The notes under the pieces: model-generated
What the model saw: the letters and a program-made list of their open reading frames with translations, nothing else
What the model was told of the DNA's origin: nothing
The model's database searches: none
Program-made: the position numbers and the translations under genes
Part shown: positions 29,842-45,186 of the stretch, in pieces
Position numbering within the stretch: the stretch's first letter is position 1
Layout of the letters: every line of letters starts with the position of its first letter
NCBI RefSeq assembly: GCF_004099695.1
Contig: NZ_SCHL01000002.1
Location: 62,001-126,000, forward strand
Length of the DNA stretch: 64,000 nucleotides
From: Methanosarcina sp. MSH10X1
GTDB lineage: Archaea > Halobacteriota > Methanosarcinia > Methanosarcinales > Methanosarcinaceae
Direction of reading: 5' to 3'

Positions 29842-31218
29842 TCAGAATACAAGTCCGAGCTCTTCGAGCTTCTTTCTTGCTCCGTCGTAAACCTGCACGT
29901 ATTCTTCAGTTGGGGTTACAGTCTTTACGTCGTAGCATTCCTGGAAGGTCTTTCCTGCGGGTGCAGTTGCGTAGTTCTTCTCATAAAGCGGCACAAGAGC
30001 GTCAAGAATCTTGTTAACCTCTGAGATTTCCATGCCTGAAGTTGCCCTTGCCACTTCACCCATCATTCTGGCTTCCATACCTGTGGTCTTGTCGGTCACG
30101 ACACCCTTTGCGGCGGCTACACCTGAGAGGATTTCCCTGCCTGATGCCGTGTCAGTTATGGACTGGGCTGAGGCCTCAAGCAGGCACATTTCTGTGCACG
30201 GACCTGCACAGGGGTAGTACTGGTTGCCTGAAAGGATATCCGTAAACTCAGAAATTGTTGCACATGCCCAGCCTGCAATCGTCAGGGTTTCCCTTGTGTT
30301 GGTTGAGCCCCAGCGTATGTGAACAGGACCATCAAGGTGCCAGCTTGCGCTGCTCATGAGAACGGCGTTGATGTGGGTTGCAATGTCGACTATTGTGGTT
30401 TCTTCAATGCCGCCTGCATATCCACCGAAGATTGGCATCTGTTCGTCCATGATGATGTCGCTGTTTCCTTTGTAGTGGGCAATAACGGCGATTGCATCCA
30501 GGTCGATCTTGAGTTCGTTGAGTTGCGAGACTTCGTGGCTGTCTGAGGAAACCTGGCCGCCATAGCAGTCAGATGCGATATTTCCCTGAGCGGACAGGGA
30601 AGTCTCTGGGCCCTATATGCCCATACCTGGGCGGCCTGCGATTGCGCATGCCTGCTTAATCAGTCGGGTCTCTGTCTTTGCGGCAAGGACTTCATAGGGG
30701 CTGCCAGGGATAGGAGATTTGCCGCGGACAGAAGTCATGACACCATCTACAATTGTGTCGACTTCCCTTTCCAGGGCATAGCTCATATGAACAGGCATAA
30801 ATACGTCTTCTGAAATCGGAGAACCTGTAGGACCTCCCTGGATTATGGGTTTTCTCTTGTCCGCAACATTTCTCTTTTTTACATTTACGGAATCCCTGCC
30901 TGTACCTAGCACGAATTCCTTCTGCACATTGTTAATTGCATCCCAGATTTCGTCTTCGGTGTATTTTACGACTCTTTTTGTGTCGGTACAGTAGATACCG
31001 CATTCAAGCAGCATGTCAAAGCCTGCGTGGAAGAGTTTTTCCATCATGTCCTTGTCTGTTGGGACAAACTCTCCCTTGAAGTCAAGCCCATACTTCTGCT
31101 TGAGTTCCATTGCCTTCATCGGAATCCTCATAAGATCCCAATCATCCTGGGTACACTTCTCGCCTACTTTCGCCCTGTCATAAAAGTCAAAGCAGTCAAA
31201 TGATTTTCTAAATGTCAT
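29842..31218 (-). CDS. mtmB: Monomethylamine methyltransferase with in-frame amber (pyrrolysine)
   Basis: Moves the methyl group of monomethylamine to the corrinoid of MtmC. The gene looks broken into two frames, 30613-31218 and 29842-30450, but they are the same frame joined through codon 202, which is TAG (30613-30615): AGRPGMGI, amber, GPETSLSAQGNI. With pyrrolysine at 202 the product is 458 residues, the exact length and amber position of MtmB (the dimethylamine enzyme MtbB has it at 356, trimethylamine MttB at 334). The rest matches MtmB throughout (FRKSFDCFDFYDRAKVGEK, DEQMPIFGGYAGGIEET). It follows mtmC by 19 bases. Confidence 0.97.
30582..30601 (-). promoter_or_regulatory. Stem-loop just after the mtmB amber codon
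   Basis: Perfect 7-base stem TTCCCTG / CAGGGAA with a 6-base loop, starting 11 bases after the TAG on the coding strand. This is where the reported pyrrolysine-insertion-stimulating (PYLIS) structure lies in mtmB. It may help read-through but known work shows it is not strictly needed. Confidence 0.6.
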
Positions 31219-32580: not shown

Positions 32581-32701
32581 TTCTAAGAGTAAATCTTTAA
32601 GTAGCAGACTTGATGTGGGCAGGATATCGGATTTCTCCGGAAAATGCAGGATTGGACGAGTGAGAACAAGCCGGACACGAAGCAACTTTCTGAAAAATTG
32701 C

Positions 32702-32731
32702 TAAAAAAATTAGACCGGCTTTGAGGCCGGC
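32702..32731 (-). terminator. Terminator of mtbA
   Basis: On the minus strand GCCGGCCTCAAAGCCGGTC is followed by TAATTTTTTTA. The stem is short (5-6 bases) but GC-rich. It stands 75 bases past the mtbA stop. Confidence 0.65.
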
Positions 32732-32805
32732 GATATGTCTCTTTTAATCCAGTACACTGCCAGTATACGAATACTCTCAGTATCTGGATATGTTCAATAG
32801 TATTT

Positions 32806-33825
32806 TCAGTACGTGTGGCTTTTTGCGCACTCAACCATTTTCTGAAGGTTGGCTGTAGGAGTCATACTGACAATTCCGCAACCAACTGTGAGTATCCCGA
32901 CACCTGCGTCGAGTACCTTCTTTGAAGCTTCTGCGACATCCTCAGGAGTCCCGTTCCAGAGCACGGCTACAGGGTCAAGGTTTCCGACAATGATGGCATT
33001 TTCCACATTCCCTGTTGCGGTCTTGATGTCTACTCTCTGGTCGACACTGATGGCGTTAACTCCGGTTTTATCCATGATTCCGAGGCCGTTGGTTGTGTTT
33101 CCGCAGATATGAAGGACAGTAGCTACATCGAGTTCTTTCATTGCGTCAACAATTTTCTTCTGGTAAGGAAGGGCATATTTCTCATAGAATTCCCCGCCGA
33201 TCAGCTCATAGCTTGCGGTTGGGTCAATAATGGCTATGGTATCTGCCCCGTTCTCAACCATTGCTTTTGCATATGCCACATTGAAGTCTGCGCAGAAATC
33301 CAGAAGCGCGGGGACAATTTCCTCTCCTGTGAATATATTTCCGAACCAGGCATCTCCGTTAATGTGCTGGGCTAGCGAGAAAGGCCCTATCATGGACCCT
33401 ATCACAGGGAGCTCTTTTCCATATTTGTCGGAAAGAATCTTAATCGCTTCCAGGATTAAACCGATTCTACCTTCTTTCAGGTTGTAATTCCTTATCTTCT
33501 CCAGATCTTCCATGTTTTTAACGCTGTGCTTGATCACTGACGGCTGCTGTTTCAGGTCGCCAGCCTTGATTCCGCAGCCAAAAAGTTCGGCTTCAGCCGT
33601 TATGTCAAAGGGAACTCTGACAGCTTCAAAACCTACTACAGTGTGCGCTGCTTCCGCAAGAGTTGCCATTTTCTCTGCGTCGGCATGGGCTTCTGGCCAG
33701 TAGGCTCCGCAAGCTTCCATCTGTTCAACAGTTGCAGTCTGAGTGAAACAGACAGCTGGCATCCGGTCCACCTGTTGTTTCCTTAATGCACGGTATAATC
33801 TTTCTTTTGGGGTATATTGTGTCAT
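32806..33825 (-). CDS. mtbA: Methylcobamide:CoM methyltransferase, methylamine-specific
   Basis: Takes the methyl group from MtmC and gives it to coenzyme M. The 339 residues fit the uroporphyrinogen-decarboxylase-like MtbA family. Zinc ligands that activate the CoM thiol are His239 and Cys241 in [11 protein letters not shown] and Cys316 in TVGCGIVSM. The N-terminus [17 protein letters not shown] is typical. AT-rich upstream sequence on the minus strand (ATTTATTTATAG near 33880-33891) is a good TATA candidate. It faces away from the SAM methyltransferase. Confidence 0.96.
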
Positions 33826-35171: not shown

Positions 35172-36797
35172 ATGTATGGAATAGCACTTGATCTGGGCAC
35201 CAGTGGTTTTAGAGCCCAGCTTATCAATCTTGAAACGAAAGAAACCTTAAAGACGGTCATAACTATGGGACACCCCCTCCCTGGGGGAAATGTTATGGAC
35301 CATCTGGATTTTGCAATTACAACAGGCGAGGACGTAGCTCATGCAGTAATTCTTGAAACCATCAGGAGGATGTTCCTGCGGTTCGATATTGATCTTTCCG
35401 GGGTGAAACGGCTGGCAGTCTGTGGAAACCCTATTCAATTATCCCTTTTCCAGAATATCGAAATAAGGGATCTGGCTTATGCAGGAGAAAACAAGCAGAG
35501 AATGCTTGGGGTCCAGAATGTAAAAAGGGATGCCCGTGTCTTTCCTGCCTCCGAGATCTTCGGGGAAAAAGATCTGCCCAACTGTGAAGTTATTGTGCCC
35601 CCTGCAATCAAACATGAGATCGGAGCTGACGCCCTGGCTATGATGCTTGAAACCGACTTCCTTACCCAGCCCGAACCTTCACTTGTAACGGACTATGGTA
35701 CAAATGCCGAAATGGCTCTGAAGATCGGGGACAGGATTATCACGGCAAGTGCGGCAGCAGGACCTGCAATTGAGGGTCAGGGCATAAGTTCAGGCATGCT
35801 TGCAAGCCCGGGCGCGATTTGCGATGTAAAGCCTGCTGAAGGGCAGCACTGGCGAATTATGGTACTTGATAGGGAAATGGAAAAACAAAACGCTTACCTC
35901 ATTCACCCGGTCACAGGGGAGATAAAAGAGTCCTATGGTTACGAGGCAGCAGGAATCACCGGCACAGGCGTTATCTCGGCCTTTGCCCTTGCACTTAAAA
36001 GCGGGCTCATCGAAAAACCTCCAAACCTCCCTAACGGAAAGTTGATTCTCGGCCCAGGAATTGAGATCACTGAGAAGGATGTAGAAGAAGCCGGAAAAGC
36101 TATCGGTGCAATCCGGGCTGCCCATATGACCCTTATCATCGAATCCGGGATTAAGTATGAGGATCTGGAGTATGCATATATGTCAGGAGCCTCTGGAGCT
36201 TATGTAGATGCTGAAGACGCCCGCAGGCTCGGCGCTGTGCCGGGATTTGCAAAAAGAATCGTCCAGTTCGGGAATACGTCGCTTGCGCTTGCCCGTGAAC
36301 TTGTGATGGATAAATCAAGGCTGGATGATGTAGTGAGGATCGCAAGGAAAATTACTGCCGATCATCTCATGATGGCGACCAGCGATACCTTCAACAATTT
36401 TTACCTCTGTGAGCTTTCCTACTGGACCATGGGAATGCCCCTTGAGATGTACAACCAGATGCTTGAGCTCTACGGCCTGCCTTCCCTCCCTAAGACTCTT
36501 GAGCATGCTAGCATCGAAAAGCGGGTTCGCAAAGATATCGAACAGGTAGGACCAGGTGGGCTTTCCATCCTCAAAGAAATAGGCATAATCCTTGAAGTCC
36601 TTGTGGAAAAATGCATTTATTGTAAAAAATGCGTAAAAGAATGCCCTGAAAAAGCCTTGGAAATCGTAGAAATAGATGGCCAAAGGATCGCAAAATACGA
36701 CAGCCAGAAATGCCTCGGTACAAGCTGCCGCCGATGTATTGCTATCTGTCCCGAAAATGCTATTGACATAACGAAACTGAAAATTACAGCAAAATAA
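35172..36797 (+). CDS. ramA: Corrinoid methyltransferase reductive activator
   Basis: ATP-dependent protein that reduces oxidised Co(II) corrinoid on MtmC back to Co(I). The 541 residues start with MYGIALDLGTSGFRAQLIN, an actin/HSP70-like ATPase start, with TDYGTNAEMALKIGD and MSGASGAYVDAEDAR further on. The C-terminal ferredoxin part holds two 4Fe-4S sites: Cys481, 484, 487, 491 (CIYCKKCVKEC) and Cys514, 519, 522, 526 (CLGTSCRRCIAIC). Ribosome site GGAGGAACT before the ATG. Expected neighbour of mtbA and pyl genes. Confidence 0.96.
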   Translation: MYGIALDLGTSGFRAQLINLETKETLKTVITMGHPLPGGNVMDHLDFAITTGEDVAHAVILETIRRMFLRFDIDLSGVKRLAVCGNPIQLSLFQNIEIRDLAYAGENKQRMLGVQNVKRDARVFPASEIFGEKDLPNCEVIVPPAIKHEIGADALAMMLETDFLTQPEPSLVTDYGTNAEMALKIGDRIITASAAAGPAIEGQGISSGMLASPGAICDVKPAEGQHWRIMVLDREMEKQNAYLIHPVTGEIKESYGYEAAGITGTGVISAFALALKSGLIEKPPNLPNGKLILGPGIEITEKDVEEAGKAIGAIRAAHMTLIIESGIKYEDLEYAYMSGASGAYVDAEDARRLGAVPGFAKRIVQFGNTSLALARELVMDKSRLDDVVRIARKITADHLMMATSDTFNNFYLCELSYWTMGMPLEMYNQMLELYGLPSLPKTLEHASIEKRVRKDIEQVGPGGLSILKEIGIILEVLVEKCIYCKKCVKECPEKALEIVEIDGQRIAKYDSQKCLGTSCRRCIAICPENAIDITKLKITAK

Positions 36798-36867
36798 CCC
36801 CTGGTGGAAATTAATTCCCACCAATTTTTGTTTTCTCCACCCTGCGTGCATGAAAGCAAAGCACAAT

Positions 36868-37030
36868 TTTACGCTAATCACGCCGCTTTGTCGGTTTAGA
36901 TAAAGCATTAGTTTTTGATTAAACCTTTTTAAAAAAGTTTGCGCCGGTTTATCACCCACAAGAGAGGGTTTTCGCTCAAGCCTTTTTTGAAAAGGTTTGC
37001 GGTCAAGGATTTTTTGAAAAGGCTTGTGAC
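36868..37030. repeat. Left inverted repeat beside pyl operon
   Basis: About 160 bases whose reverse complement matches the sequence at about 42117-42330 on the other side of pylTSBCD. The best block, CAAGCCTTTTCAAAAAATCC through GGCTTGAGCG, spans about 60 bases with only two differences; further blocks include TGATAAACCGGCGC and ATGCTTTATCTAAACCG. Each copy contains small palindromes of the AAGCCTTTT/AAAAGGCTT kind. The peptide frames it creates on the two sides (KPFQKILDRK) are shadows of the repeat. Confidence 0.85.
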
Positions 37031-37180
37031 CATGCCGCTGAGTCTTTCTCATAAATAAGCTCTCTTGAGCGAAGTGGAAAGGGCCCATCCTCCTGGGACG
37101 GAACTCAGGTTCAACAATTATAAATAAGAGTATGTTTTTTCTTAAAGTTTTGACCAATAAACATATATATCAAACAACAT

Positions 37181-37190
37181 TATTTTATAT
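37181..37190 (+). promoter_or_regulatory. TATA box of the pyl operon
   Basis: TATTTTATAT about 61-70 bases before the first base of tRNA-Pyl, in an AT-rich stretch, with no other promoter-like element between. Would start transcription about 37210-37215. Confidence 0.55.
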
Positions 37191-37250
37191 AACTAATAAA
37201 CATAAATATACAGGAAGCAAAACGCTTTGTTAAACCTATTTTGTCTAGGA

Positions 37251-37322
37251 GGAAACCTGATCATGTAGATCGAATGGACTCTAAATCCGTTCAGCCGGGT
37301 TAGATTCCCGGGGTTTCCGCCA
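37251..37322 (+). tRNA. pylT: tRNA-Pyl (CUA anticodon, amber suppressor)
   Basis: 72 bases including an encoded CCA. Acceptor stem GGAAACC pairs with GGTTTCC; discriminator G at 37319; anticodon CTA at 37281-37283 in ACTCTAAAT. The unusual small D-loop and the single base between acceptor and D stems, both typical of tRNA-Pyl, are present (CCTGATCATGTAGATCGAA). Directly upstream of pylS in the same orientation, as in all Methanosarcina. Confidence 0.98.
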
Positions 37323-37531
37323 TATTTCTGAATCCCGGAATGGCATTCATAACATTCCATTGAAATGTTTTATAAAATCTGGAGATTTCTTCCAGCACTT
37401 ATAAATTGTTTCTATTACTTGGGATCGCTTTTATTTTCCGGGTAGCTGTCAGCAAATTCCTGACTCCTTGCTTATATTCAATAAGCCGGGATTCTGAAAT
37501 ACTGTTTCTTGGAGATCATCCGGGCTTTTAA

Positions 37532-38779
<1,248 letters not shown>

Positions 38780-38837
38780 GCTGGAAAATTCGCTAAGGTA
38801 ACCTTGAGCGGCTAAAAACAGATTGAGATATTAGAAC

Positions 38838-39020
38838 GGCAACATTTGAATGGCAAAAAGAATGGCAATATTGAACCGCAAAATAGAATAGCAGTATTGA
38901 ATGGCAAAAAGTAGAATGAAATCTAGAATAGCAATTTCAATGGCAATATTAAATGGCAAATCTGGATGGTAAAAACTCGAAATGTCAAAAAAGGCTAAGT
39001 AACGAGATTGAAATGGCAAT
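38838..39020. repeat. Degenerate GAATGGCAATATTGAA repeat between pylS and pylB
   Basis: At least ten imperfect copies of a GAATGGCAA core, several extended to GAATGGCAATATTGAA or with AGAATAGCA variants, fill most of the 295-base spacer. Copies are irregularly spaced (about 10 to 25 bases) so no single period fits. The rest of the pyl operon is tightly packed. Could be a slippage product or a protein/RNA-binding array. Confidence 0.65.
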
Positions 39021-39074
39021 TCGGTCTCAATAAAGCCGGAATAAATATCAGGAAATTTATGAGAGGGTGAAATT

Positions 39075-40127
39075 TTGATCCAAAAAATGGCACTTGACGA
39101 ATTTGGCAGGCTAGGAGAAAGAATCATTGAAGGTTATCAGTTGTCGGATGAGGACCTGAGGGCTCTTCTTTCCCTTGAATCCGAAGAAGACCTGGAAAGA
39201 CTCTATTCCGCAGCGCGAAGAGTAAGAGATCATTATTTTGGCAACAGAGTATTCCTTAATTGTTTCATCTATTTCTCCACTTACTGTAAAAATCAATGCT
39301 CTTTTTGCTACTATAACTGTAGAAACGAGATCAATAGGTATCGTTTGACCATAGATGAAATAAAAGAAACCTGCAAATCCCTGAAAGGCGCAGGTTTCCA
39401 TATGATTGACCTGACCATGGGAGAAGATCCCTATTACCATGAAGACCCTGACCGGTTCGTTGAGCTTGTCCATATAGTAAAAGAGGAGCTGGGGCTTCCT
39501 ATAATGATTTCTCCAGGCTTAATGGATAATACCACTCTTCTCAAAGCCAGGGAGAAAGGAGCAAACTTCCTGGCTCTTTACCAGGAAACCTATGATACTG
39601 AACTCTATCAGAAACTCCGGGTTGGGCAGTCATTCAATGGACGTGTCAATGCACGCCTTTTTGCGAAGGAACAGGGATACTGTGTAGAAGACGGCATACT
39701 CACAGGCGTTGGAAACGATATCGAATCTACCATCCTTTCCTTAAGAGGAATGAGCACGAACGATCCTGATATGGTCCGGGTTATGACCTTCCTGCCCCAG
39801 GAAGGAACTCCGCTTGAGGGTTTCAGGGACAAATCAAATCTCTCGGAGCTGAAAATTATATCGGTTCTCAGGTTACTGTTTCCGAAACGCCTTATCCCTG
39901 CCTCCCTTGACCTGGAAGGCATTGACGGCATGGTTCACCGCTTAAATGCAGGGGCAAACATTGTTACTTCAATTCTTCCTCCGGATTCCAGACTGGAAGG
40001 TGTTGCAAACTACGACCGCGATCTTGAAGAACGGGATCGGGATATAAATAGCGTAGTTCGCAGGCTCGAAACTATGGGTATGGAACCTGCAAGGCAGGCT
40101 GAATTTGAAGCAGTCCTGGGGTGCTAG
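39075..40127 (+). CDS. pylB: Methylornithine synthase, radical SAM
   Basis: Isomerises lysine to 3-methylornithine, first step of pyrrolysine synthesis. 350 residues. Radical SAM cluster Cys71, Cys75 and Cys78 in CKNQCSFCYY. Other marks: FLNCFIYFSTY, LTMGEDPYYHEDPDRFVELV, SPGLMDNTTLLKAREKGANF. Start TTG at 39075 with GAGAGGGTGA ribosome site, giving MIQKMALDEF as in known PylB. The stop codon is TAG (40125-40127), unusual here, followed one base later by the pylC ATG. Confidence 0.97.
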   Translation: MIQKMALDEFGRLGERIIEGYQLSDEDLRALLSLESEEDLERLYSAARRVRDHYFGNRVFLNCFIYFSTYCKNQCSFCYYNCRNEINRYRLTIDEIKETCKSLKGAGFHMIDLTMGEDPYYHEDPDRFVELVHIVKEELGLPIMISPGLMDNTTLLKAREKGANFLALYQETYDTELYQKLRVGQSFNGRVNARLFAKEQGYCVEDGILTGVGNDIESTILSLRGMSTNDPDMVRVMTFLPQEGTPLEGFRDKSNLSELKIISVLRLLFPKRLIPASLDLEGIDGMVHRLNAGANIVTSILPPDSRLEGVANYDRDLEERDRDINSVVRRLETMGMEPARQAEFEAVLGC

Positions 40128-40128
40128 C

Positions 40129-41220
40129 ATGAAAACGATCTGCCTTGTGGGCGGGAAACTCCAGGGCTTCGAAGCTGCGTACCTGTCTAAAAAAGCCGGA
40201 ATGAAGGTAGTTCTGATAGATAAGAACCCGCAGGCTCTGATCCGAAATTATGTGGATGAATTCCACTGTTTTGACGTAATAAAGGAGCCTGACAAACTTC
40301 TGGAACTCTCAAAGAGTATTGACGCTTTACTTCCTGTAAATGAAAACCTCGCCTGTATCGAATTTCTGAATTCAATTAAGGAGAAATTCTCCTGCCCGGT
40401 ACTTTTTGATTTTGAAGCTTATCAGATCAGCAGGGATAAGAAAAGTTCAAAAGACTACTTTAAGTCCATAGGAATTCCGACTCCCCGGGATAACCCCTCA
40501 GAACCGCCTTATTTTGTAAAACCTCCCTGCGAAAGCAGCAGTGTAGGAGCCAGGATAGTTTATAATAAAGATGAACTTGAAGCCCTTGAACCTGGCATGC
40601 TGGTTGAAGAATACGTTGAGGGCGAAGTCGTTTCTCTCGAGGTAATCGGGGATGGAAGTAATTTTGCAGTGGTAAAAGAAACTCTAATCCATATAGACGA
40701 AACTTACGACTGCCATATGGTAACTCCACTTCCTGCTGATCCTTCCTTCAGGCAGATCTCCCATGCTCTCGCAGCAAATCTTCCCTTGAGGGGAATTATG
40801 GACGTAGAAGCAATCTCCGGTCCAAAAGGGCTCAGGGTGATCGAAATCGATGCCCGTTTTCCGAGCCAGACCCCAACAGCCGTTTACTATTCTTCCGGAA
40901 TCAACCTGATAGAACTTCTTTTCAGGGCCTTCACTGGTGGCATCGAAGAAAACGAAGCTCTTCCTGAAGATAAATATTGCATTTATGAGCATCGCATTCT
41001 CGGAGAAAACGGAATCCTCGTTCCTGCAGGAGAACAGGTACTTTCCATGGGCAGCGAATATGGGAAATTCCATGAAGAACCCGGAATTGAGATTTTACTT
41101 TGCAAAGCAGAAAACCCGGTATTCACCCTGATTTTCTGGGGTAAGGATAGGGAAGAAGCTGAGGCAAAAAAATGCAAAGGGCTCTCGATTCTCAAAGACC
41201 GTTTCGGAGCTGCGGTGTGA
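40129..41220 (+). CDS. pylC: Pyrrolysine synthesis ligase PylC
   Basis: ATP-grasp enzyme joining 3-methylornithine to the epsilon amine of lysine. About 363 residues from ATG 40129 (MKTICLVGGKLQGFEAAYLS); the TTG further upstream is inside pylB. ATP-grasp marks: YFVKPPCESSSVGARIVY, GMLVEEYVEGEVVSLEVIG and GIMDVEAISG...VIEIDARFPSQ. Full length and colinear with the known enzyme. Confidence 0.97.
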   Translation: MKTICLVGGKLQGFEAAYLSKKAGMKVVLIDKNPQALIRNYVDEFHCFDVIKEPDKLLELSKSIDALLPVNENLACIEFLNSIKEKFSCPVLFDFEAYQISRDKKSSKDYFKSIGIPTPRDNPSEPPYFVKPPCESSSVGARIVYNKDELEALEPGMLVEEYVEGEVVSLEVIGDGSNFAVVKETLIHIDETYDCHMVTPLPADPSFRQISHALAANLPLRGIMDVEAISGPKGLRVIEIDARFPSQTPTAVYYSSGINLIELLFRAFTGGIEENEALPEDKYCIYEHRILGENGILVPAGEQVLSMGSEYGKFHEEPGIEILLCKAENPVFTLIFWGKDREEAEAKKCKGLSILKDRFGAAV

Positions 41221-41296
41221 AGGAATAGAGAAGAGGAAGGTTAAGTAAAGAGTTAGGGAAATCAGGATTTTCCAGAAGCAGGAAATGGAGACAAAA

Positions 41297-42076
41297 ATGG
41301 CACTTTTAACCCAGGATGATTTGATAAATATTAATATGCAACTTCAGAAAGCTGATTCTAATGTACGGAAAGTAACAGGACTTGACATAAAAGGTGTTTG
41401 CAAAGCCCTCTACGGCGTCCCCCGGAACTCCGAGAAAGTCGGTATTGTGCCTATAACCTCGGGAAACGGGATAATAGGAAACTTCTCGGCTTCTCTGCAT
41501 GCGATTACAAAATATTTCGGATTTGATAGTTTTGTCACGGATATGCCGGATGTCAGCGGCTATTACGAGGCTGTAAGGAATGGAGCTGAAATCATCCTTA
41601 TGGCAGACGACCACACCTTTCTTGCGCATAACCTTAAAAATGGAAAAATAGCCAACAACCAGCCATGCACAGGCGTCATCTATGCTGAAATCGCCTCCAG
41701 GCACCTGAAAGCCGATTCAAAGGAGGTACTTGTTGTGGGGCTGGGGAAGGTAGGTTTTCCGGGAGCAGCGCACCTTATGAATAAAGGTTTCAAGGTTTAC
41801 GGGTATGATGCTGATAGCGTACTCCTCAAGAAGGCGGTCTCAAGTCTCGGAATTGCCCCTTTCAACCTTGAAAACCCAAAAAAGTTTTCCATTATTTTCG
41901 AGGCGACCCCCTGTGCAAATACAGTTCCTGAAGCCGTAATCTCGAAAAATTGCGTACTTTCCACCCCCGGAATTCCCTGCGCAATCTCCGAGGAGCTTCA
42001 AGAGAAGTACAATGTGGAACTCATAATGGAACCCCTGGGAATAGGAACGGCATCAATGCTGTACTCTGTGCTATAA
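41297..42076 (+). CDS. pylD: Pyrrolysine synthesis dehydrogenase PylD
   Basis: Oxidises the lysine-methylornithine dipeptide so it cyclises to pyrrolysine. 259 residues from ATG 41297 (MALLTQDDLININMQLQKAD), with ribosome site GGAGACAAAA; the four-codon-longer frame is not needed. Rossmann fold with VLVVGLGKVGFPGAAHLM; C-terminal EPLGIGTASMLYSVL is typical. Last gene of the pyl operon. Confidence 0.96.
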   Translation: MALLTQDDLININMQLQKADSNVRKVTGLDIKGVCKALYGVPRNSEKVGIVPITSGNGIIGNFSASLHAITKYFGFDSFVTDMPDVSGYYEAVRNGAEIILMADDHTFLAHNLKNGKIANNQPCTGVIYAEIASRHLKADSKEVLVVGLGKVGFPGAAHLMNKGFKVYGYDADSVLLKKAVSSLGIAPFNLENPKKFSIIFEATPCANTVPEAVISKNCVLSTPGIPCAISEELQEKYNVELIMEPLGIGTASMLYSVL

Positions 42077-42109
42077 AACCCGAGCCTCGTAAACTTTTTG
42101 AGTAAAGCG

Positions 42110-42330
42110 TTTAACTGCAAGCCTTTTCAAAAAATCCTTGACCGCAAGCCTCTTCAAAAAAGGCTTGAGCGCAAACTTTTTCAAAAAAAGTTTGATCAAA
42201 AACGCATGCTTTATCTAAACCGGCTTAACCGGAGCGTGATAAACCGGCGCAACGGTTTCAACGCAAGCCTTTTCAAAAAAGGCTTGAGCGAAAATCCCCA
42301 GGCAACGGCGTGATAAACCGGCGCAACGGT
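42110..42330. repeat. Right inverted repeat beside pyl operon
   Basis: Inverted copy of 36868-37030. Begins soon after the pylD stop with AAGCCTTTTCAAAAAATCC, runs through two AAGCC...GGCTT palindromes, ATGCTTTATCTAAACCGG and GTGATAAACCGGCGCAACGG (the latter given twice at about 42234-42254 and 42310-42330). The copy is longer than the left one because some blocks are duplicated. Confidence 0.85.
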
Positions 42331-42375
42331 TTCGGGTCAACGGTTTCGGGTCAACGGTTTCGGGTCAATGGTTTC
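42326..42375. repeat. 14-base tandem repeat
   Basis: Three exact copies of ACGGTTTCGGGTCA at 42326-42367 followed by a partial copy (ATGGTTTC). It grows out of the end of the right inverted repeat, which ends in CAACGGTTTC, so it probably arose from it by slippage. Confidence 0.9.
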
Positions 42376-42468
42376 ATCACAACGGCTTGGTCTGTCACTT
42401 CAACTGGGCGGTTATTCATGGCTTCTGAAAGCATTGCCTAAGATCCTCCTCTAAATCGTTTATTATGA

Positions 42469-42621
42469 TGGAGCGATGAATTTCCTTATGAAGTTCAGAT
42501 TCTGTTTGATAAAAATGCTTCACGCTTTCTGGAGTTTGAATGTTTGGCTTTTTTAGAGGGATACCTTGCAAGAGCGATGATTATGACAGCTAAACCAGGA
42601 GATATAACCGGATGGGTGTAA
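42469..42621 (+). pseudogene. Coding-like fragment without start
   Basis: A 50-codon stretch reads WSDEFPYEVQILFDKNASRF then LEFECLAFLEGYLARAM and ends at TAA. It has normal amino-acid composition and codon use for this genome but no start codon and an upstream stop, so it looks like the 3' remnant of a lost gene. Family not recognised. It lies outside the right inverted repeat. Confidence 0.4.
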
Positions 42622-43430: not shown

Positions 43431-44228
43431 ATGCCCATCATGAGTATTATTTCATGCAAGATAATGCAGGACGAAATCATCTGGATTCTTGAAAGTGACT
43501 CTTCCATTGATGAGATCATTGTAGTTGATAATGAAAATATCCGGGAATTCGTAGAAAAACTGGACAAAGTAAATCTCCAGTATAAAGTGCTCTCTCTGGA
43601 AGATATTTCTTCACTTCCAGAAATTAAAATCGAATGCAAGAAATATACGGTTTTGGTCCATTTGATGGAATTGGGCCTTCATAGAAGTCCTAAAGAGTTG
43701 AAAATTAAGGTATATGAGACCATAAAGACTCTGACTCCTTTTTCGTCGGGAATTTTACTCTTCTACGGTTTATGTGGGAATGTACTTGGAGATGTTGAAA
43801 AAGATTTTCAACGTAGTTCAATCTCATGTCCGGTTCGGATTCTTAAAGACAAAGATCACAGGATTGTCGATGACTGCATAGGGGCTACTGTGGGAGGAGT
43901 CAAGAACTATCTAAGGATACTTAAAAGTGTTAGTGATGCCGGAACATACCTCTTTACTCCCATGTATAGCAAGGGCTGGAAGGAACTATTTGACATGAAT
44001 AGGCTAAATAAAGACCCCGCCAAAGCATTGAAATTAATGAAGAAGACTCACGAAATGATTGGTTATAAAAGAGTTGCTAAGATTAATACTGGCCTTAAAT
44101 ACACTGAAAATTTCGACGCTTCTATTCGAGAATTTGCAGATTTGTTTGGTTTCGAAATTTTGGAATTCGATGATGGTAATCAAGAAATCTTTAAAGATTG
44201 TTATCACGAACTCAAAATGGAGCTTTAG
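43431..44228 (+). CDS. DUF1638 protein, copy 1 (ends in TAG)
   Basis: 265 residues. Shares with copy 2 the block order MPxxSIIxC, LLFYGLCGNVLG, ILKDKDHRIVDDCIGATVGG and a C-terminal RVAKINTGLKYTENFDAS. DUF1638 proteins are common beside corrinoid methyltransferases and RamA in anaerobes; the conserved Cys residues in the YGLCG and DDCIG motifs could bind a metal or corrinoid (inference). Its stop is TAG at 44226-44228; read-through would add pyrrolysine and five residues before TGA. Function unknown. Confidence 0.8.
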   Translation: MPIMSIISCKIMQDEIIWILESDSSIDEIIVVDNENIREFVEKLDKVNLQYKVLSLEDISSLPEIKIECKKYTVLVHLMELGLHRSPKELKIKVYETIKTLTPFSSGILLFYGLCGNVLGDVEKDFQRSSISCPVRILKDKDHRIVDDCIGATVGGVKNYLRILKSVSDAGTYLFTPMYSKGWKELFDMNRLNKDPAKALKLMKKTHEMIGYKRVAKINTGLKYTENFDASIREFADLFGFEILEFDDGNQEIFKDCYHELKMEL

Positions 44229-44280
44229 GAAAAATCAAAGTGTTGACAAAATTTTGTATTTGTAAATGAGTGGTGAGCGG

Positions 44281-45186
44281 ATGCCTGTACTTAGCATAAT
44301 TGCCTGTGAAATGCTTGAAGACGAACTGGCATATGTCCTCTCAGAAGACCGTGACTTAAATCAACTGATTGTAGTTGAAAACAGGCAGAGTTTCAGGTTT
44401 GTTCGAAAGCTTAAATCCAAAAATTGCCATCTCAGATTTTTTCCTTTGGACAAGGTACCTATTTTTTTAAAAGAGGCAAATAACTCTATACCTTTGAATA
44501 TTTCGAAACTTTTATTAAAATTTCCGTTTTTTAAGAAAATACCTCATAATATCAGAGGAAAGAGTAAAGAAAAGAACAAAGAAAAGCCTATTGTCGTTGT
44601 AGACACTCTGAAGCTTGGTCTACATGCAGATCGTGAACTCTTAAGGTCTGAGATCTACCAGCATATTAAGAAAATGGCAGCTTTTTCAGATGGCATTCTT
44701 ATTTTCTATGGAAATTGTGGGCACTCTCTGAGGAACACGAAAGAAGACTTTAAAGATCTCCCCTGCTCTCTTTATTTTCTCAAAGATGAAAAAGGAGAGA
44801 TTGTAGATGATTGTATCAGTGTAGCTCTTGGGGGCAACGATAATTATGCTGAAGTTATGCAGAGTGGGAATGGTACGGGTATGATATACCTGACTCCTAT
44901 GTGGGCCTCCAGCTGGAAACAAATGAGAAAGGAATCTAACGGCACTTCTAACTTCAATGAAAACTTCTTGAAAAAGCATTACCGAAAGGTTGTCAAAATC
45001 GGTAATAAAATTTCTATAGAAAGTGAATTCGATAGAAACGTCTTAAATTACGCTCGAACTTTTAATATGAGTATTGCTGAAATGGAAGGCAGTATGAAAA
45101 TAGCAAGTAAGTCCTATATAAGTGCCAAAAGCGATATCTGCAAAAAAAGCAGTATCAGATTAAAGAATATTGAGTGGATATGCTGA
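44281..45186 (+). CDS. DUF1638 protein, copy 2
   Basis: About 301 residues from the ATG at 44281 (MPVLSIIACEMLEDELAYVL), preceded by GTGGTGAG and aligned with copy 1; the ATG at 44266 adds five residues. Contains the same ILIFYGNCGHSLRN and VDDCISVALGGNDNYAEVM blocks, plus an insert of about 30 basic residues (about 70-105) absent from copy 1. 52 bases after copy 1, so same operon. Function unknown. Confidence 0.8.
   Translation: MPVLSIIACEMLEDELAYVLSEDRDLNQLIVVENRQSFRFVRKLKSKNCHLRFFPLDKVPIFLKEANNSIPLNISKLLLKFPFFKKIPHNIRGKSKEKNKEKPIVVVDTLKLGLHADRELLRSEIYQHIKKMAAFSDGILIFYGNCGHSLRNTKEDFKDLPCSLYFLKDEKGEIVDDCISVALGGNDNYAEVMQSGNGTGMIYLTPMWASSWKQMRKESNGTSNFNENFLKKHYRKVVKIGNKISIESEFDRNVLNYARTFNMSIAEMEGSMKIASKSYISAKSDICKKSSIRLKNIEWIC

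Follow-up and report, generated by a model that had tools for sequence, protein, structure and literature searches.

The amber stop codon of pylB is retained throughout nearly all of Methanosarcina and in five further genera with the start of pylC one base beyond it, and this kept arrangement suggests a self-limiting switch on the production of pyrrolysine (Pyl). In the reading preferred here, to which we assign a probability of roughly 45%, the pylB UAG is a selected, pyrrolysine-sensitive termination signal at a coupled junction and provides negative feedback on pyrrolysine. More tentatively, Pyl may suppress the amber stop and thereby uncouple the translation of pylC, such that across much of the Methanosarcinaceae the expanded genetic code would sense its own amino acid.

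The window (the whole stretch of DNA analyzed, 64,000 nucleotides from Methanosarcina sp. MSH10X1) holds a complete pyl cluster on the forward strand, its genes each scoring above the curated cut-off of the family: pylT (37251-37322, located with ARAGORN), encoding a tRNA-Pyl whose CUA anticodon (CTA in the DNA) reads UAG; pylS, pyrrolysyl-tRNA synthetase, with a TAA stop (37550-38779; NF007083, 697 bits); pylB, methylornithine synthase, with a TTG start and a TAG stop (39075-40127; TIGR03910, 565 bits); pylC, 3-methylornithine-lysine ligase, with an ATG start and a TGA stop (40129-41220; TIGR03909, 543 bits); and pylD, the final enzyme of Pyl biosynthesis, with a TAA stop (41285-42076; TIGR03911, 374 bits). 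All prerequisites for decoding UAG as Pyl, namely tRNA-Pyl, PylS and PylBCD, are present in the window. The junction reads ...CTG GGG TGC TAG C ATG AAA..., with TGC at 40122-40124, the conserved amber stop, a putative Pyl-tRNA-sensitive switch, at 40125-40127, a single spacer base at 40128 and the pylC ATG at 40129-40131, in agreement with a preliminary description of this DNA in which pylB ended in TGC TAG with the pylC ATG one base on. A Shine-Dalgarno-like run on the same strand, GGGGTG (40118-40123), lies within the final pylB codons 5 nt ahead of the pylC ATG; we take it to be a match to the 16S rRNA tail, and its GGGG columns are near-invariant across Methanosarcina. Also as described earlier, if the TAG is read as Pyl the protein gains Pyl plus 20 residues, the read-through product being O-HENDLPCGRETPGLRSCVPV; this forward-strand frame (40128-40190) overlaps pylC out of frame and ends in TAA at 40188-40190.

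The preliminary count proved correct: in the window, TAG ends two intact genes only, pylB and a DUF1638 gene at 43431-44228. A further TAG-ended frame on the reverse strand (30613-31218) is not an intact gene and represents mtmB cut at its own Pyl codon; with the in-frame TAG at 30613-30615 read through, mtmB spans 29842-31218 on the reverse strand and matches Pfam MtmB with 770 bits. An 83-aa TAG-ended frame at 32583-32834 is unconserved. The DUF1638 gene is the first of a pair of adjoining DUF1638 genes lying just 3' of the pyl cluster (43431-45186), and its TAG stop is kept in genome G079.

Conservation of the pylB TAG, the check proposed in the preliminary description, was evaluated in the 99 genomes with a detected pylB, out of 112 in the family, the locus being read in nearly all of them; Pyl bacteria and Methanomassiliicoccales lie outside the sampled genomes. 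Of 26 Methanosarcina genomes, 25 have TAG as the stop and the other (G079) has TAA. TAG also ends every sampled pylB in five more genera, g7 (n=11; Methanococcoides by matching named contigs), g10 (n=8; includes Methanohalophilus), g5 (n=4), g4 (n=2) and g3 (n=1), and the UAG thus occupies the same place across relatives, as is the case for a Pyl-decoded UAG. The close relatives of Methanosarcina therefore do not end pylB freely in TAA or TGA, an outcome that had been named in advance as one that would count against the proposal. In the same genomes TAG ends neither pylS nor pylC in any case, and the only 4 members of the family in which it ends pylD all lie outside the six genera with pylB TAG. 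Two metagenome assemblies, G076 (L143) and G100 (L062/L343), carry pylB genes that end in TAG but are broken by frameshifts or N runs, which are likely assembly errors. Rother and Krzycki (2010, PMC2933860) give TAG as the pylB stop of M. mazei, M. acetivorans and M. burtonii, and TAA as that of M. barkeri; G079 is probably M. barkeri, in agreement with that source. The TAG ending in some Methanosarcina has thus already been published, and the firmness of its retention is the new result.

That firmness bears directly on whether the TAG could be an ancestral codon inherited neutrally and without function. Since both main branches of the tree carry it, it may be old, and TAG has a single one-step exit to another stop codon, a property that would favor passive persistence. 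However, TGA likewise has one single-step exit and is retained only to ~54-68% between the window's genome and genome G075, and on the same tree both neighboring genes and other TAG-ended genes changed their stop codons several times. When 50 genomes from the TAG-bearing genera are placed on one tree, the stop of pylB changes once (TAA in G079, the lone exception among them), versus 8 changes for pylS, 8 for pylC and 13 for pylD, never to TAG in these three genes; if the rates were equal, the Poisson probability of so few changes in pylB would be ~0.0007. Within Methanosarcina alone pylB again shows 1 change versus 5, 4 and 7 for pylS, pylC and pylD, and versus 5, 8, 7 and 4 for four other TAG-ended genes. 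These four genes of the window's genome keep TAG in 10/27, 1/28, 1/26 and 0/29 congeners (own copy excluded), or ~11% overall. Background rates were taken from four Methanosarcina stretches of 360-400 kb with a simple reading-frame filter rather than a gene caller, and by this measure TAG ends 4.6-6.0% of the kept reading frames. Comparison of the window's contig with G075 gave 161 ortholog pairs after filtering, of which only 2, pylB and mtmB, have TAG in both genomes, and in mtmB it is a true Pyl codon, unlike an ordinary stop. From the low turnover and this pattern of sharing it follows that the pylB TAG is retained in the manner of a true Pyl codon and not of an ordinary stop; neutral inheritance is accordingly regarded as quite improbable.

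The retained TAG is accompanied by an invariant geometry. The pylC start follows the pylB stop at +1 nt in the window, as it does in each of the 51 genomes checked (clades g1, g3, g4, g5, g7, g10 and g13), placing the stop within a few nucleotides of the next start, as in pairs coupled by termination-reinitiation. Where pylC stands at +1, pylB ends in TAG in 49/51 genomes, in TAA in 2 and in TGA in none. In g6, g8 and g9, where pylC is more distant, the pylB stop is TAA or TGA, and in Methanolobus-like and related clades pylB and pylC form an ATGA overlap, which forces the TGA stop seen there. Outside these arrangements, G053 (L096) has a pylB TAG within a 13-nt overlap (-13) and G066 (L102) one ahead of a 10-nt gap (+10), possibly as independent gains. 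A distant genome of the phylum, G129, has two pylB copies (L341 and L342), each near a pylS-like gene and both ending in TAA; no pylC was found beside them.

The association of TAG with the +1 geometry, together with its position in the spacer between the GGGGTG run and the pylC start, would also be expected if the codon were kept for a reason independent of Pyl, such as release kinetics at UAG or a base composition before the pylC start that favors pylC initiation. Such an explanation is considered unlikely in view of the following. The other stop-N-ATG pairs of Methanosarcina (n=13) use TAA in 10 cases and TGA in 2, and the 1 case of TAG is pylB itself; as other +1 pairs mostly use TAA, the geometry alone does not demand TAG, and the possibility that it forces the choice of stop codon was rejected. 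The TAG lies outside the Shine-Dalgarno-like run, and the bases that flank it vary: over 49 genomes the commonest letter reaches 53% at the base before TAG and 37% at the base after it, versus 98% for the G of TAG, so that the codon forms an island of constancy between a variable preceding codon and a variable following base. In most Methanosarcina, moreover, the TAG sits within CTAG, a tetramer found at 0.42-0.69 of expectation, three of the four genomes showing a depletion of about two-fold.

The start codon of pylC is TTG or CTG in 19/24 Methanosarcina and ATG or GTG in all other +1 genera, and these weak starts fit a dependence of pylC on coupling. In some species pylC might begin further upstream; the idea that TAG is constrained as pylC coding sequence by such a start was rejected, since the codons that would then contain the TAG differ between species, and 14/51 genomes, including G075, have no upstream ATG, GTG or TTG for pylC.

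Read-through could alternatively serve to make a longer PylB with altered activity or stability, which was one of the two effects raised in the preliminary description. The frame is indeed open for 14-42 codons, and in g7 and g10 the extensions are longer than most obtained by randomization (p ~0.04-0.05), each clade being in effect one observation. Against this, the length of the extension varies both between and within genera (14, 20, 23, 39 and 42 residues), and when the codons of pylC are randomized synonymously the lengths in Methanosarcina are typical of chance (mean p 0.50). The third positions of pylC codons are the first positions of the extension frame, and they vary by 0.342 per pair in the first 21 codons versus 0.26-0.43 elsewhere; no synonymous slowdown of pylC under the extension was found by this comparison of the first 21 codons with other windows. 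Conservation of the protein after the UAG is therefore absent in these tests, and as the downstream frame is variable, chance-like and free of synonymous slowdown, pylB was not classed as a Pyl-containing protein. A stable conserved structure of the PYLIS type was not found right after the UAG, where the consensus fold has z = -0.26, and Rfam gave no match at 36500-42500. Conserved RNA structure at the junction as a whole, also considered, was set aside as weak (z -1.9 over 123 nt). Because the tests of length, synonymous sites and RNA structure show nothing, the extended protein does not appear to be a target of selection; a longer PylB as the selected product was rejected as the main reading by the extension-length and synonymous-site tests, and is judged very improbable. 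Of the two effects proposed, an altered PylB is thus left unsupported, and coupling to pylC is favored, since the TAG and the spacing are kept (+1 being invariant wherever the TAG is conserved) while the extension is unselected.

The favored reading, a Pyl-sensitive termination signal, would operate as follows. When Pyl-tRNA is scarce, ribosomes would halt at the pylB UAG and restart at the pylC start one base on. When it is plentiful, part of the ribosomes would decode the UAG as Pyl, cross the pylC start out of frame and terminate only after a further 14-42 codons, too distant to reinitiate; the output of PylC, and so of Pyl, would drop relative to that of PylB, constituting a negative feedback loop. 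Such a mechanism would need no particular extension sequence but would need a nearby pylC start, and this need would explain why the TAG and the +1 spacing are kept together. The conservation of the TAG and of the spacing is observed directly; we infer the coupling at the junction, the suppression at the UAG, and both the direction and the magnitude of the effect. Two doubts stand out. First, the TAG is dispensable, since G079 and G072 have TAA and the Methanolobus-like and related clades, with their ATGA overlaps, manage without it. Second, the suppression reported is modest: in an M. acetivorans reporter, UAG was decoded as Pyl at 20-30% (PMC2933860), a level at which the effect on pylC would be modest too.

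Coupling by termination-reinitiation is established for archaeal gene pairs that overlap or are separated by a +1 gap, and in the +1-nt pair HVO_0685/0686 it is strict, with reinitiation lost at 22 nt (PMC10666635, PMC6728339; Huber et al. 2019, 2023). The pylB-pylC pair resembles these in its very short stop-to-start distance and differs from them in that its coupling is proposed from the arrangement and that its stop is the one codon open to override by the product of the pathway itself, by virtue of which the coupling could be tuned. It likewise resembles the methylamine methyltransferase genes mtmB, mtbB and mttB, which in pyl organisms have a UAG kept from species to species; in those genes, however, the protein continues and is conserved past the UAG, whereas the frame downstream of pylB is short, variable and unselected. 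Another analogue is the frameshift in bacterial RF2 (prfB), a case of autoregulatory recoding: a stop codon within the expression unit of a decoding factor responds to how much of that factor is present. The pylB stop would act as a sensor of the same kind; RF2, though, employs a frameshift in its own gene, while suppression at pylB would affect the gene that follows it in the pathway, and the pylB TAG is not placed in any such family.

No earlier proposal of a feedback role for the pylB TAG was found in the open-licence literature searched. The 2010 account deals with the same codon and, in the part available, cites it to illustrate UAG in the role of a plain stop, with no wide survey, geometry or feedback proposal appearing there; it also reports that M. 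acetivorans pylB with TAA is functional in E. coli, a result without bearing on regulation (PMC2933860). If the preferred reading holds, the UAG stops of Pyl-using archaea would not all be leftovers to be avoided, and the pylB amber codon would be a candidate sensor, one codon in size, by which cells that read UAG both as a stop and as an amino acid may match the supply of Pyl to demand.
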